64,000 nucleotides of DNA. Origin: Caballeronia sp. LZ062 (lineage in GTDB: Bacteria; Pseudomonadota; Gammaproteobacteria; Burkholderiales; Burkholderiaceae). The stretch lies in NCBI RefSeq assembly GCF_031450785.1, contig NZ_JARTWB010000001.1, forward strand, positions 372,001 through 436,000, read 5' to 3'. Below are positions 14,505 through 20,618 of this stretch, one piece after another. Under the pieces are notes generated by a model. It saw nothing but the letters and a program-made list of their open reading frames with translations, was not told where the DNA came from and searched no databases. Made by a program: the position numbers and the translations under genes. The first letter of the stretch is position 1, and every line of letters begins with the position of its first letter.

Positions 14505-17215
14505 CGCGTCCACGGTGCGTCGCGCTCGGGTTGCGCCACGCCGTACTTCTCGCGCGCACGCTCGAGCACCGCGCGCTCGACCACGCCGTCGTCCGCCAGC
14601 GCCTTCAGCGCCGAGAGCACGATCGCCACGCGGTCCACTTCGAAGAACGCGCGCAGCGACTGCCGCGTGTCGCTGCGCCCGAATCCGTCCGTGCCGAGCG
14701 TCACATAGCGGCGCGGCACGTACGCGCGGATCAGTTCGGGCAACGCGCGCACGTAGTCGGTCGCGGCAATCACCGGCCCGCGCGACGCTTGCAGCGCACG
14801 GGTTACGTAAGGCGTCGGCGCCTCGTCGGATACGCGGTCGAGGCGCTCGCACGCCGCGCCGTCGCGATGCAGTTCCGCGTAGCTCGTCACGCTCCAGACG
14901 GCGGCGTCGACGTTCCAGTCGGCGTTCAGCATGGCGCGCGCGGCAATGGCTTCGTTGAGAATCGCGCCCGAGCCGAGCAGTTGCACTTGCGCGCCGCTCG
15001 CCTCTTCGTCGCTCGAAATGCGGTGGATGCCGCGCAGAATGCCTGCGCGCGTCGCGGGATCGAGCGTCTTGCCGGGCGCCGACGGCTGCGCGTAGTTCTC
15101 GTTGGTGACGGTGATGTAGTAGAAGACGTCGCGCTGCTGCATCAACATTTCCTGCATGCCTTCATCGACGATCGCCGCCACTTCGTATGCGAACGCGGGA
15201 TCGTAAGCGCGGCAGTTCGGAATGGTCGATGCCGTCAGATGACTCGTGCCGTCCTGATGCTGCAAGCCCTCGCCGCCGAGCGTCGTGCGCCCCGACGTCG
15301 CGCCGATGAGGAAGCCGCGCGAACGCTGGTCCGCCGCCGCGAAAATCAGATCGCCGATGCGCTGGAAGCCGAACATCGAGTAGTAGATGTAGAACGGCAG
15401 CATCGGCAGGTCGTGGACGCTGTAGGACGTGGCCGCCGCGATCCACGACGAAATGGCGCCCGCCTCGGAAATGCCCTCTTCCAGAATCTGCCCGCGCGTG
15501 TCCTCGCGGTAGTAAAGCATGGAGCCCATGTCTTCCGGCTCGTACAGCTGGCCGAGCGGCGAATAAATGCCCACTTGCCGAAACAGATTCGCCATGCCGA
15601 AAGTGCGCGCCTCGTCCGCGACTACGGGCACGATGCGCGGGCCGAGCGTCGCGTCTTTCATCAGGCTGCCGAGCATACGCACGAATGCCATGGTCGTGGA
15701 CATTTCCTTGCCGGCCGTGTCGAGCGCGAACTGCGCCCACGTGCCGAGCGCGGGCGGCACGAGCGATTCCGACGCCCTAGCGCGCCGCCGAGGCAGATAA
15801 CCGCCGAGCGCCGCGCGGCGTTCGTGCAGATACCGCATTTCCGGGGCATCGTCGGCGGGCTTGTAGAACTTCAGCGCCTCGACGTCGGCATCGGAAAGCG
15901 GCAAGCGGAAGCGGTCGCGAAATGCTTTGAGGTCGTCGAAATCGAGCTTCTTTTGCTGATGCGTCGTCATGCGGCCCTGCCCGGCCGTACCCATGCCGAA
16001 GCCTTTCATTGTCTTCGCGAGAATCACCGTCGGCTGGCCCGTGTGCGCCAGCGCTCGCGCGTAGGCCGCGTGCAGCTTGCGCACGTCGTGGCCGCCGCGC
16101 CGCAAACGGTCGATGTCTTCATCGGACAAGTGCGCAGCGAGCGCGGCCAGCTCGGGGTTCTGGCCGAAAAAGCGTTCGCGGTTGTACCGGCCGTCGTTGG
16201 CCGAAAACGTCTGGAACTGGCCGTCGACCGTATGCGCAAAGGCGCGCAGCAACGCGCCGGTGCGGTCGCGGGCGAAGAGCGCATCCCAGTCAGATCCCCA
16301 CAGCACCTTGATGACGTTCCAGCCCGCACCGGTGAACTGCGCCTCCAGCTCATCGACGATGCGCCCGTTGCTGCGCACCGGTCCGTCCAGCCGCTGGAGA
16401 TTGCAGTTGATGACGAAGACGAGGTTGTCGAGCCGCTCCCGCGACGCCAGCGACAGCGCGCCGATCGACTCCGGTTCGTCCATCTCGCCGTCGCCGAAGA
16501 AGCCCCAGACCTTGCGCCCCTCCGTCTGCTTCAGACCGCGGTTCTGCAGATAGCGCATGAAGCGCGCTTGGTAGATGGAGTTGATCGGCCCGATGCCCAT
16601 GGATCCGGTCGGAAACTGCCAGAAGTCGGGCATCAGCCACGGATGCGGATACGAGCACAGCCCCGGCCCGGCGATTTCGCGGCGGTAGTGCTGCAAATGC
16701 GTTTCATCCAGAAAGCCTTCGAGGAGGGCGCGCGCATAGACGCCCGGCGACGAATGCGGCTGGAAGTAGACCAGATCGCCGCCGTGCTTTTCGCCCGCCG
16801 CGCGAAAGAAGTGGTTGAAGCCGACTTCGAAGAGATCAGCGGCGGACGCGTAGCTCGCAATATGGCCGCCGAGTTCGCCGTAGGCGCGGTTTGCGCGCAC
16901 GACCATCGCCAGTGCATTCCAGCGCAGCACGCCCGCGAGTTTCTCTTCGATATCGAGATTGCCCGGATACGGCGGCTGCTGTTCGACGGGAATCGTGTTG
17001 GCATACGGGGTCGCCCGCGCCCGCGCCGATTCCACCCCGACCGACAGCGCGTGCTCCGCCAGCCGGTCGAACAGATACTGCGCGCGCTCCTTGCCGACGT
17101 GCGCGACGACCGCATCGAGCGCGTCCAGCCATTCGGCGGTTTCGCCGGGGTCGGCATCTTCGCGACCCCGCGCGAGAGAAAGAAGCTGGCTCGTTCCGTT
17201 CGACAAGTCCGTCAT
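14501..17215 (-). CDS. aceE: Homodimeric pyruvate/2-oxoacid dehydrogenase E1 component (AceE/MdeB type)
   Basis: 904 residues, near the AceE length of about 890. It has TPP binding in GDGEMDEPE followed by [18 protein letters not shown], and AceE blocks [18 protein letters not shown] and [15 protein letters not shown]. It decarboxylates a 2-oxoacid and passes the acyl group to an E2 lipoyl domain, but no E2 or E3 gene is adjacent. It stands alone beside a divergent Lrp-family regulator. This arrangement is known for mdeB (2-oxobutyrate, methionine degradation) in Pseudomonas, so an amino-acid-derived 2-oxoacid is a plausible alternative to pyruvate. ATG at 17215 (MTDLSNGT). Confidence 0.92.
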
Positions 17216-17233
17216 GGCGCGACTCCGCTGGCT

Positions 17234-17261
17234 GGCTGGTATCAATCGAGGATAACCAGCC
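17234..17261. promoter_or_regulatory. Inverted repeat between E1 and Lrp genes, candidate Lrp operator
   Basis: GGCTGGT at 17234-17240 and ACCAGCC at 17255-17261 form a perfect 7-bp dyad with 14-base spacing, inside the 138-base divergent promoter region. Lrp/AsnC proteins usually bind such dyads and control the divergent gene. Confidence 0.4.
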
Positions 17262-17353
17262 CCGCGCAGAATGTGCATCTCATTTGGCTGCCGGCGCGCT
17301 TTACGGTAGGGTGTTTATTCCTCGAAAACCCGCAAAACAGGAATCTTCCAACT

Positions 17354-17884
17354 ATGAGCTCGCAAGCGAAGGAGCGGCTGGACCGCACCGATATTGGTAT
17401 TCTCAATGCGCTTCAGCAGAATGCGCGCGTCACCAATTCGGAGTTGGCGCGTGCCGTCAACCTGTCGCCGACGCCGTGCTTCAACCGCGTGCGTGCCCTG
17501 GAAAAGGCCGGGTTATTCAAGCAGCACGTCACGTTGCTCAACCCCGAGGCGCTCGGCTTGAGCATCAACGTGTTCATTCAGGTGAGTCTGGAGAAGCAGA
17601 TCAAGGACGCGCTCGCGCGTTTCGAGCAGGCGATCAGCGAGCGTCCCGAGGTGATGGAGTGCTACCTCATGACGGGCGATGCTGACTACCTACTGCGCGT
17701 AGTGCTGCCCGACGTCGCGGCGCTGGAACGCTTCATTCTGGAGCGGCTCACGAAAATGCCGGGCGTGTCGAATATCCGCTCGAGCTTCGCGCTCAAGCAG
17801 GTGCGATACAAGACAGCATTGCCGTTGCCGGCGTCCGGTTTGACGTTGCCCGAGTCGAAACGGGGCGAGGAAGATTGGACATGA
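17354..17884 (+). CDS. Lrp/AsnC-family regulator
   Basis: 176 residues. The HTH at the N-terminus ([45 protein letters not shown]) is diagnostic. The C-terminal RAM ligand-binding domain (about 75-155) contains the typical [20 protein letters not shown] at 17354. It is divergent from the E1 gene and therefore likely its regulator, probably responding to an amino acid. The C-terminal tail (about 155-176) is unstructured. Confidence 0.9.
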
Positions 17885-17892
17885 CTTCGCCC

Positions 17893-17920
17893 AAGACAAA
17901 GGCTCCCGGAGCGGGAGCCT
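17893..17920 (-). terminator. Intrinsic terminator of the twin-peptide operon
   Basis: 9-bp stem AGGCTCCCG / CGGGAGCCT (17900-17908 and 17912-17920), 3-base loop. On the minus strand it is followed by TTTGTCTT, a usable U tract; on the plus strand the following bases are CTGAAG. It therefore terminates the minus-strand peptide genes, 39 bases after their last stop. Confidence 0.75.
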
Positions 17921-17959
17921 CTGAAGCACAGTCACGCTCTCACGAGGAGAGCGGCGACC

Positions 17960-18073
17960 TTACGCGGAGATGTTGATGTCCACGGTGGTGCTGGTCGAGG
18001 ACGAGCTCGACGCCTTGGCCGTGCCGCCAGAGATGTTTGCCTGAGCGAGAGCAGCGCGTTCGATCTTTTGCAT
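17960..18073 (-). CDS. Twin peptide B: 37-residue peptide with conserved N-half and Ser/Thr-rich tail
   Basis: ATG at 18073 with AAAGG 8 bases upstream; TAA at 17960-17962. Residues 1-17 are MQKIERAALAQANISGG, then TAKA, then a Ser/Thr run, ending TTVDINISA. It is a paralogue of the 37-residue peptide encoded 55 bases upstream: 14 of the first 17 residues are identical, and TAKASS is shared. The N-half looks like an amphipathic leader ending in Gly-Gly; the C-half is hydroxyl-rich with an alternating hydrophobic end. There is no signal peptide of Sec type. I do not recognise a family. Function unknown; a secreted or modified peptide is one possibility. Confidence 0.7.
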   Translation of the reverse strand: MQKIERAALAQANISGGTAKASSSSSTSTTVDINISA

Positions 18074-18128
18074 TTGAATACCTTTGTTGATTGCGATTGA
18101 AACGATGGTTCTACGGTGTCGAGCGGAC

Positions 18129-18242
18129 TTACCCCGTGATCGTGATCGTCACGTTGGTGTTGGACGAAGACGTGCTCGACGCCTTGGCCGTGCCACCAGC
18201 GATGTTTGCCTGAACCAGAGCAGCGCGGTCGATCTTTTGCAT
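18129..18242 (-). CDS. Twin peptide A: 37-residue paralogue, first gene of the pair
   Basis: ATG at 18242 with AGAGGC upstream; TAA at 18129-18131. Residues 1-17 are MQKIDRAALVQANIAGG, then TAKASSTSSSNTN and the end VTITITG. Same length and layout as peptide B. The conserved part (residues 1-22) and the divergent tail indicate duplication followed by selection on the N-half. Substitutions between the pair are conservative (Glu/Asp, Ala/Val, Ser/Ala), which argues for translation. No processing enzyme or transporter is encoded next to them. The neighbours are an Lrp regulator and Ap4A phosphorylase. Confidence 0.7.
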   Translation of the reverse strand: MQKIDRAALVQANIAGGTAKASSTSSSNTNVTITITG

Positions 18243-18581
18243 GATGTGCCTCTTGATAGAAACGAAATAAATTGAGGTGATACGCCGTGGAGGAGAGCCA
18301 CATGTTGTGAACCGGTTCCTTGCGTGCCTTTGCAGCAGCGTCCGACGCGCTCAGTCATGCCGCGCATTCGTTAAGCATAGCGAATGATTAACTGCATCCG
18401 CGAACGACCAAGTGGCAGGAAGTCTATCCAAACGAATGCCGGAATTGAACGCTGAAAAGTCCGAACTATCGAGGCGCATTGATGCGCTACGTACGGAAAG
18501 CGGCTACCCAGCAAGCAGCTCCCAAACGCAAGGTGATCAAAAGCAGCAAAATGCTCGCTTCAGCAATCACTCGTCAGACAC
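18243..18581. promoter_or_regulatory. Divergent region upstream of twin peptides and Ap4A phosphorylase
   Basis: 339 bases. It carries an inverted repeat CATTCG-N10-CGAATG at 18365-18386, which could be an operator or a hairpin in the peptide leader mRNA. The part nearest the peptides is AT-richer (about 18255-18285). Promoters could not be placed with certainty. No further gene is seen. Confidence 0.4.
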
Positions 18582-19484
18582 ATGAGCCAATCACAACGAC
18601 CCGTACTTCAGGCGCCTTCGTGGCAAGCCGTCGTCGAGCAAACCGGGCGCGCGCTCGCGTGCGGCGCGCTACGTCCCTTCGATACGGTGCAGCACGTCAT
18701 CGAAGACGCTGGCGTATCCTTTCTCGTGCGGCAGGCCGCGAACCTCGCGCGCAAGGACGAGGCGGCGAAGCTCGCGGCCAAGTCCGCCACCGATGCCGCC
18801 AGCGCCTGGCGCGATCCGTTTTCGCCATGCGAGGACGTGCTGCGCGTAGGCGATATCGGCGAGCGGCACTTCCTGTTGCTGAACAAGTTCAATGTGCTTC
18901 CGTATCACCTGCTGATTGTCACGGCGCAGTTCGAGCCACAAGAGTCTCTGCTCGATACCGACGACTTCGCCGCGCTCTTCGCATGCGTGAGCGAATTCGA
19001 CGGCCTCGGCTTCTACAACGGCGGCGCCATCGCCGGGTCGAGCCAGCCGCATAAGCACATGCAGATGGTCCGGCTGCCGCTCGACGGCTGCGCGGCGCCG
19101 ATCGAGCCGTTGATCGAAGCCGCGCGCGGCGACGCCATCTTTCGCGTGCCGCAGCTCGCGTTCGGGCACGCGGCGGCGTGGCTCGGCGATGCATCCGGCA
19201 TCACGCCGCAGGCCGCGCAACGCACGTATCGCGCAATGCTCGACGCGATCGGCGTCGAACCGCTCGACGTTGCCGGGGCGACGCATCAGTCGGCACCGTA
19301 CAACCTGCTCGTTACACGCCGCTGGATGCTCGCGGTGCCGCGCTCGGTGCCCGAGGTCGAAGGCATCGCGATCAACGCGCTTGGCTTCGCCGGCTCGCTT
19401 TTCGTGCGCGACGATGCACAACGCAGCATCGTCGAAACGCTCGGTCCGATGACGCTGCTCGCCCGAGCTTCGCGCCCCGTCTAG
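18582..19484 (+). CDS. ATP adenylyltransferase (Ap4A phosphorylase)
   Basis: 300 residues. The Apa1/2-type HIT motif QPHKHMQM lies near residue 150, preceded by FYNGGAIAGSS. The C-terminal half contains the family block SAPYNLLVTRRWMLAVPRS. These enzymes cleave Ap4A by phosphorolysis to ADP and ATP and help control alarmone-like dinucleotides. ATG at 18582 (MSQSQRPV). It is followed after 69 bases by the protease gene on the same strand. Confidence 0.88.
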   Translation: MSQSQRPVLQAPSWQAVVEQTGRALACGALRPFDTVQHVIEDAGVSFLVRQAANLARKDEAAKLAAKSATDAASAWRDPFSPCEDVLRVGDIGERHFLLLNKFNVLPYHLLIVTAQFEPQESLLDTDDFAALFACVSEFDGLGFYNGGAIAGSSQPHKHMQMVRLPLDGCAAPIEPLIEAARGDAIFRVPQLAFGHAAAWLGDASGITPQAAQRTYRAMLDAIGVEPLDVAGATHQSAPYNLLVTRRWMLAVPRSVPEVEGIAINALGFAGSLFVRDDAQRSIVETLGPMTLLARASRPV

Positions 19485-19553
19485 GGCCGCCGCGCGGCCT
19501 TGAAAAGCGTCCGGGCGGCCCGCATGTCGGCTCTCGAACATCCGGAGTCCACC

Positions 19554-20618
19554 ATGGGAAGCCGACCTCAATTCATCGACGATCTTGCGCGCGGCTCGCA
19601 AGACGCCGCGCTGTCGCAATCGCGAACGCAGACGCAAACGCAAACGCAAACGCAGCCGCTCGACGACACCGCGTTGCTCGATGCGTATTCGCGCACCGTG
19701 ATCGGCGCGCTCGAGCGCGTGCAGCAAGCCGTCGTTTTCATTTCGGTCGAGCGCGAACTGGCCGATGCCCGCGGTGCGCGCCGCCACGCGGGCGGCACCG
19801 GCTCGGGCTTCATCTTCACGCCCGACGGCTATCTGCTGACCAATAGTCACGTGGTTCACGGCGCAACGCGCATCACCGTGACGCTCGCGGACGGCGCGCA
19901 CTTCCACGCTGATCTCGTCGGCGACGATCCGGGCAGCGATCTGGCGGTGCTGCGTATCGGCTCGCCCGAACCGCTGCCGCACGTCGAACTGGGCGAATCG
20001 GGCAATCTGCGCGTGGGTCAGATCGCGATTGCGGTCGGCAATCCGCTCGGGCTTGCGCAGACTGTGACGACGGGCGTCGTGTCGGCGCTCGGACGGTCGC
20101 TGCGCTCGACGTCCGGCCGAATGATCTACGACGTCATCCAGACCGACGCCGCGCTCAATCCCGGCAATTCGGGCGGGCCGCTCATCAATTCGGCGGGACA
20201 GGTGATCGGCGTGAACACGGCCATCATTTCGGGCGCGCAGGCCATTTCCTTCGCGACCGCCATCGATACGGCCAAGTGGGTCATCATGCAGATCTTCGCA
20301 TATGGACGCGTGCGGCGCGCCTATATCGGCGTCGCCGGAACGACCGCGCCGGTGTCACGGCGCGTGCAGCGCTTCTTCGGGCTGACGTCGGCGAGCGCAG
20401 TGCACGTGATGGAAGTCGTCAAGGGAAGCCCGGCCGCGCTCGGCGGGCTGCGCACGGGCGACCGCATCGTCGCGGTGGATGGCGTGAACGTCGATAGCGT
20501 CGACGGCTTGCAGCGCGCGCTGGATGCGTCGCGTATCGAACGCGCCGTGAAGGTCGCGGTGCTGCGCGGGACGCAGCTGCTCGATCTCGAAGTGACGCCG
20601 GTCGAGCAGATCGGCTGA
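19554..20618 (+). CDS. S1C (HtrA/DegP-like) serine protease with one PDZ domain, no signal peptide
   Basis: 354 residues. The catalytic triad is complete: His in TNSHVVHG, Asp in GSDLAVL, Ser in NPGNSGGPL. One C-terminal PDZ domain (about 255-345) contains GSPAALGGLRTGDRIVAVDG. Family members normally carry a signal peptide or a TM anchor, but here the N-terminus is soluble (MGSRPQFIDDLARG) with a (TQ)5 repeat, so the protein is predicted cytoplasmic. The ATG at 19554 is preceded by GGAG at 6 bases; a weak TTG upstream (19500) does not add a signal peptide either. Confidence 0.87.
   Translation: MGSRPQFIDDLARGSQDAALSQSRTQTQTQTQTQPLDDTALLDAYSRTVIGALERVQQAVVFISVERELADARGARRHAGGTGSGFIFTPDGYLLTNSHVVHGATRITVTLADGAHFHADLVGDDPGSDLAVLRIGSPEPLPHVELGESGNLRVGQIAIAVGNPLGLAQTVTTGVVSALGRSLRSTSGRMIYDVIQTDAALNPGNSGGPLINSAGQVIGVNTAIISGAQAISFATAIDTAKWVIMQIFAYGRVRRAYIGVAGTTAPVSRRVQRFFGLTSASAVHVMEVVKGSPAALGGLRTGDRIVAVDGVNVDSVDGLQRALDASRIERAVKVAVLRGTQLLDLEVTPVEQIG
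19626..19655 (+). repeat. Five 6-bp units encoding (Thr-Gln)5
   Basis: Units ACGCAG, ACGCAA x3, ACGCAG inside the protease gene. The unit length is a multiple of three, so slippage would change the linker length without a frameshift. Confidence 0.9.

Follow-up and report, generated by a model that had tools for sequence, protein, structure and literature searches.

What are two tandem reading frames of equal length, each only 37 codons long, doing among genes that look like ordinary housekeeping genes? The question arises from a stretch of 64,000 nucleotides (nt) of Caballeronia sp. LZ062 (contig NZ_JARTWB010000001.1, positions 372,001 to 436,000; hereafter the window), in which two minus-strand open reading frames (ORFs), here called A and B, had been singled out in an initial annotation as a possible peptide system. 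We propose that A and B are in all likelihood orphan double-glycine (GG) precursors, exported in trans by a C39 peptidase-exporter system about 906 kb away and possibly acylated.

Both ORFs are present as first described (Table 1), each a 17-residue leader followed directly by its core, with 55 nt between A and B. The leaders are alike at 14 of 17 residues (differences D/E5, V/A10 and A/S15), the TAKASS block is the same in both, and an AG-rich stretch lies 5' of each ATG, in line with the ribosome site claimed for each gene. The pair stands between the same neighbors in five sister loci, which were chosen because they bear it, one locus having three peptides; in a sixth compared locus (L065) the peptide stands alone at the edge of a contig, and these neighbors are missing. 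Homologues, for which the initial annotation had proposed a search outside this strain, were found, and its suggested comparison of synonymous and nonsynonymous changes showed synonymous ones to dominate, with variable columns at the three codon positions numbering 5/3/17 in A (six sequences) and 1/3/11 in B (five sequences) rather than being evenly spread. For A, the ratio of nonsynonymous to synonymous polymorphism (pN/pS) over six sequences was 0.19, with 0.04 in the leader and 0.30 in the core. For B it was 0.14 over five sequences (the longer copy in G132 being omitted), with 0.16 in the leader and 0.13 in the core. Because the pair keeps its neighbors and is under purifying selection, we regard A and B, judged by their sequences, as real genes. 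The suggested division into a constrained N-terminal and a free C-terminal half describes A, whose core is freer than its leader, and fails for B, whose core is as conserved as its leader; nor is the C-terminal half entirely free, a claim contradicted by a near-invariant Lys at core position +3.

A search of the genome with A returned six family members (E = 2.1e-17 to 1.3e-3), namely A, B, two at C1:1296170-1296911 (74 and 40 amino acids [aa], the 40-aa ORF with an additional ATG two codons upstream), a fifth at C2:197242 (43 aa) and a sixth at C1:504366 (69 aa). In each of the six, a 17-residue leader ends in GG, which supports the earlier view of a leader plus core. The same genome also supplies the partner that had been supposed to act in trans. 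At C1:1296170-1302691, distant from the pair at C1:389960-390242, lies an operon in which the 74- and 40-aa precursors are followed by a 311-aa protein with a PatA/LpxM fold, an HlyD-type adaptor (HlyD_3, 1.2e-11), a C39 peptidase-ATP-binding cassette (C39-ABC) exporter (G000:C1:1299247-1301364; Peptidase_C39 8.8e-24, ABC_tran 3e-29) and an outer-membrane factor, the last assigned by position and resemblance. The C39 catalytic residues are invariant in the aligned exporter rows, and the genome encodes a cognate exporter with its catalytic residues intact. A second C39 domain (C1:269099-269482, E = 5.3e-41) belongs to an unrelated locus (G000:C1:262000-276000, L165), where a 1019-aa ORF holds the domain, adaptor-like and FHA-like proteins were seen by inspection, and a putative precursor, picked by eye among small ORFs, has a different leader containing MSGIMGGGG.

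The distribution of the peptides ties them to this exporter. Of 200 genomes of the family, 21 carry the peptides, and it is these 21 and no others that carry exporter orthologues (62-100% identity), the remaining C39-ABC matches at E<=1e-80 being at most 33% identical. The 311-aa protein is found in 20 of the 200, all among the 21, and the missing one is a fragmented assembly. The association is looser in a sample of 58 genomes of the genus, where 20 carry the peptides, 17 the exporter (E<=1e-130) and 16 both, leaving four with the peptide only and one with the exporter only. When the family alignment was run against a class-wide sample, none of 368 other genomes matched at E<=1e-3, this genome being the sole carrier of 369; the leader family is narrow in that sample, though exporter orthologues occur in Rhodanobacter and Dyella.

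A scan of named genomes extended the picture to 62 exporter loci (62-95% identity; three further weak rows were ignored) in Caballeronia, Paraburkholderia, leaf-nodule symbionts, Rhodanobacter and Dyella. The 311-aa protein and HlyD are each present in 61 of these loci, a few of them broken, and an OEP-type outer-membrane factor in 59 (Pfam was run on three factor-bearing loci, and one of the three loci without a factor stops at a contig edge). The gene for the 311-aa protein is also retained in Rhodanobacter, Dyella and one Paraburkholderia locus, but there it has moved to a place behind the exporter. Broken, split or truncated genes were seen in loci L108, L125, L128, L132, L137 and L138, some of them in leaf-nodule symbionts. 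A leader profile, trained on 79 leaders from fetched loci plus three core residues and thus leaning towards its own kind, found 75 precursors in 58 of the 62 loci, every one upstream, on the same strand and within 5 kb. With a pattern blind to the core, the named loci yielded 71 unique GG sequences, of which 65 have Lys at core +3 and none lies on the minus strand. The profile set excludes precursors below 16 bits (L112, L130), and the pattern failed to split 2 of 73 unique sequences. Among the unique sequences of this set, a 17-aa leader is present in 70 of the 71 that are exporter-linked and in all 25 orphans, and Lys stands at core +3 in 66 of 71 and 25 of 25, respectively; orphan here means off the fetched exporter stretch and includes short contigs of G173 that give no distance. 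Cys at core +1 divides operon-borne from orphan sequences cleanly (55 of 71 exporter-linked vs 0 of 25 orphans).

The alternating hydrophobic ends that first drew attention to A and B exceed chance (p = 0.008 and 0.004, 500 shuffles of the core from +4). Across the family, where cores range from 14 to 51 aa, alternation at p<0.05 was found in 14 of 22 orphan cores, 9 of 29 non-CC exporter-linked cores and 3 of 43 CC-type cores, Fisher values for which are not independent, many cores being orthologues; eight longer orphan cores gave no significant alternation. Neither the leader nor either peptide was assigned to a family by Pfam and NCBIfam scans, and scans of A and the 311-aa protein with PHROGs and PADLOC gave no family for the peptides. 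Names, shown in shortened form, among the 71 database matches listed are "hypothetical" or "uncharacterized", save one automatic name beginning "Six-cysteine peptide", and many are unnamed. No title or abstract among the matches listed from the open PubMed Central literature was recognized as describing this peptide family; a screen for GG peptides in Gram-negative bacteria was reportedly carried out by Dirix and others in 2004, and a family member could be listed there.

The 311-aa protein is a candidate core-modifying enzyme. Predicted-fold comparison gave it the PatA/LpxL/LpxM acyltransferase fold, His133 is kept in 59 of 59 rows of its alignment (A2, with one 168-aa and two broken proteins left out), and it has a weak NCBIfam match to PRK07920 (5.4e-4); a profile search of PDB sequences returned nothing. 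It differs from PatA, the mycobacterial phosphatidylinositol mannoside (PIM) acyltransferase, and from the lipid A acyltransferases LpxM and LpxL in having Tyr138 in place of Asp/Glu, in falling below Pfam detection and, across the 200 genomes, in occurring only alongside the peptide exporter.

Several observations weigh against export in trans with acylation. The HX4(D/E) pair of the candidate enzyme is without its acid, position 138 being Tyr in 58 of 59 rows and Cys in one; the protein has no Pfam match, Lip_A_acyltrans was not detected in four homologues at E<=10, and comparison of its profile with six LpxL-type rows gave no support, perhaps because both alignments are shallow. Of the 21 exporters, those of G173 and G128 are partial or split. 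In the genus sample, 4 of the 20 peptide-bearing genomes have no exporter match at the threshold given above (G201, with a weak peptide match; G214, 60% complete; and G227 and G228, fragmented at 3.8-3.9 Mb), and G234 has a truncated exporter and no peptide match. In its hydrophobic spacing the leader departs from the microcin-type pattern, and the second C39 exporter offers another, highly improbable, route. Finally, co-occurrence is strong yet non-independent evidence, because linkage of the operon-borne peptides and shared ancestry explain part of it.

Under the export model, A and B would be translated in the cytoplasm, their shared leader would dock on the C39-ABC exporter and be cut after Gly17, and the 20-residue core starting T-A-K would exit via the adaptor (HlyD) and the outer-membrane factor that the exporter operon encodes. 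The mature peptides would, from their predicted cores, be small, hydroxyl-rich and strand-prone. The 311-aa protein would most likely either acylate the peptide, with the conserved Lys (core +3) or the newly exposed N-terminus as the best guess for the site, or modify the envelope so that the producer tolerates the peptide. GG peptides that leave through C39 systems are already known; what sets this system apart is its private leader, its orphan arrays and its LpxM/PatA-fold partner with an altered motif. Much more tentatively, these features might define a new class of ribosomal lipopeptide, with a private 17-aa GG leader, acylation at Lys+3 or the N-terminus by a dedicated H-x4-Y PatA/LpxM-fold enzyme and subsequent cleavage and export by a single C39 system serving both operon-borne and distant orphan precursors, a proposal that we hold to be more doubtful than probable.

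As to function, we lean, on a thin basis, to a surface or matrix role in which the peptides might self-assemble in the manner of cyanobacterial EbfG proteins, a suggestion that is itself far from secure and only slightly more likely than a microcin-like toxin. We do so because of the alternating core ends, the lack of an immunity-like ORF beside the pair or in the operon gaps, the cores kept among orthologues and the upstream usher genes. PMC4997328 and PMC9981879 describe EbfG1-4 of Synechococcus elongatus, for which such a role has been shown, as small biofilm proteins with a GG motif that require the cysteine peptidase of PteB for efficient secretion, with EbfG1-3 forming amyloid. The system of A and B resembles that of EbfG1-4 and PteB in pattern, with small GG proteins and strand-prone tails. 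It differs in that the short cores are rich in Ser/Thr or Cys/Pro and that the system includes an acyltransferase-fold gene. An usher gene lies upstream of the exporter operon in 17 of the 62 named loci as well as in this genome, and a chaperone gene in 13. At least four changes are needed to place the usher label on the exporter tree (53 of 63 exporters, ten having been dropped for stops or short pieces), and the usher-exporter link is either recurrent or repeatedly lost. The fimbrial-type stretch of this genome occupies L007:155-6045 (G000:C1:1290154-1296044), and usher and chaperone genes were also seen in Rhodanobacter (L112).

The closest competitor, which we judge doubtful and which concerns function only, is a microcin- or bacteriocin-like family whose exported cores kill or inhibit related bacteria, the acyltransferase-fold protein being a modifying or self-protecting factor. 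The export architecture matches that of class II microcins of the microcin V type (CvaA/CvaB/TolC), for which PMC10233263 gives precursors with 15-18 aa leaders ending in GG or GA, a C39-ABC exporter, a membrane fusion protein as adaptor and an outer-membrane factor, and here too the precursors are short, their leaders end in GG, and adaptor and outer-membrane factor accompany the exporter in nearly all named loci; the variable core lengths also fit. Unlike class II microcins, however, the system has orphan precursors far from the exporter, a PatA/LpxM-fold operon gene and peptides without an NCBIfam or Pfam match. No immunity-like ORF was seen beside the pair or in the gaps of the operon: no membrane-type small ORF was found in 17800-18620 or in L007:6040-7030 (top 19-residue hydropathy mean 1.01), and in L098 only 65 nt separate the peptide from the next gene, though an immunity gene may lie elsewhere. 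Conservation of the cores among orthologues and the several paralogues per genome without partners likewise argue against a toxin. Among NCBIfam models the exporter matches TIGR03796 best, a model of the nitrile hydratase leader peptide (NHLP) and leader microcin (NHLM) export systems, but at 340 bits the match falls far short of the cut-off of 853.3. NHLP/NHLM leaders are long and of the nitrile-hydratase/Nif11 type, unlike the 17-aa leaders of this family. A reading as a lanthipeptide or other classical ribosomally synthesized and post-translationally modified peptide was rejected, since the ORFs shared by nearly all loci include no known type of maturase.

It is unlikely that the exported peptides are signals sensed by kin or host, again a rival for function only. 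Their size and GG export resemble those of known pheromones, some carriers bear the names of plant- or insect-associated species, and non-toxin GG peptides are mentioned in PMC10233263. Against this, the only ORFs of at least 110 aa in nearly all compared exporter loci, shadow frames aside, are the PatA/LpxM-fold protein, HlyD, C39-ABC and the outer-membrane factor; no sensor stood out in flanks that had no systematic annotation; and low-complexity Ser/Thr cores would be unusual receptor ligands. Less probable still is that A and B are intracellular small proteins whose leader-like half is a binding motif with no role in export, an alternative that the initial annotation had also raised: the window locus itself encodes nothing for export, but the same leader precedes exporter genes in 58 of 62 named loci, and presence of the peptides is tied to the exporter across the 200 genomes, if more loosely in the genus. 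That A and B instead leave through the second C39 system is the least credible alternative, since, although that domain is present, its locus has a putative precursor of its own and the leader family of A and B tracks the orthologues of the other exporter.

Table 1. Features of the tandem peptide locus, in window coordinates
Feature	Position	Strand	Remarks
Precursor peptide gene A, first of tandem pair	18129..18242	minus	37 aa; orthologues in L060-L064; pN/pS 0.19
Leader of A, MQKIDRAALVQANIAGG	18192..18242	minus	predicted C39 cleavage after Gly17
Core of A, TAKASSTSSSNTNVTITITG	18132..18191	minus	20 aa; Lys at +3; alternating strand-like tail
Precursor peptide gene B, second of tandem pair	17960..18073	minus	37 aa; orthologues in L060-L064; pN/pS 0.14 (five sequences)
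Leader of B, MQKIERAALAQANISGG	18023..18073	minus	leader-family comparison
Core of B, TAKASSSSSTSTTVDINISA	17963..18022	minus	20 aa; core pattern and alternation test
Ribosome-site-like stretch before A (AAGAGG)	18243..18256	minus	sequence alone
Ribosome-site-like stretch before B (AAAGG)	18074..18088	minus	sequence alone
Hairpin 17920-17900 and T-rich tail, probable (possibly two-way) terminator	17891..17920	minus	fold z -3.9 for 17885-17960

The shared terminator first proposed for the two genes fared unevenly. A 9+3+9 hairpin is followed by TTGTCTT, and the fold of 17885-17960 beats its own shuffles (0 of 200 as good), whereas a simple terminator pattern scan did not list the hairpin. It may serve genes on both sides because it sits between B and a convergent asnC-like gene (17354-17884, plus). 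No sigma-70-like promoter was found in a scan of 17800-18700, and Rfam gave only two matches over 17000-19500, both at chance level. One flanking gene encodes an E1-type dehydrogenase (TIGR03186, 1717 bits), and the other neighbors, by inspection only, are an Lrp/AsnC-type regulator, an ATP adenylyltransferase-like protein and a DegP-like protease, in whose gene a run of CAGACG-type hexamers (19600-19680) gives QTQTQTQTQ near the N-terminus. Elsewhere, a longer orphan class (63-69 aa) with a hairpin-like tail of the type TSVITVNGQQVINQTVTF was seen in this genome (L006) and five sister genomes (L073-L077). The C2 orphan precursor (L009:5219-5350, minus) is flanked on one side by a KDPG-aldolase-like gene and on the other by the gene for a long protein with Ser/Leu/Thr repeats (L009:5945-8458, plus) that looks like a trimeric autotransporter.

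If the proposed export in trans is correct, a single dedicated C39 exporter can serve several peptide genes scattered over a Gram-negative genome, and searches limited to the surroundings of exporters miss part of the output, here four of the six precursors found in the genome. With an LpxM/PatA-fold protein as a steady companion and a Lys that hardly varies, acylation of the peptides by a lipid-A-type enzyme can be tested directly and cheaply. The carriers include plant- and insect-associated Caballeronia and Paraburkholderia, in which secreted small peptides could matter in colonization.
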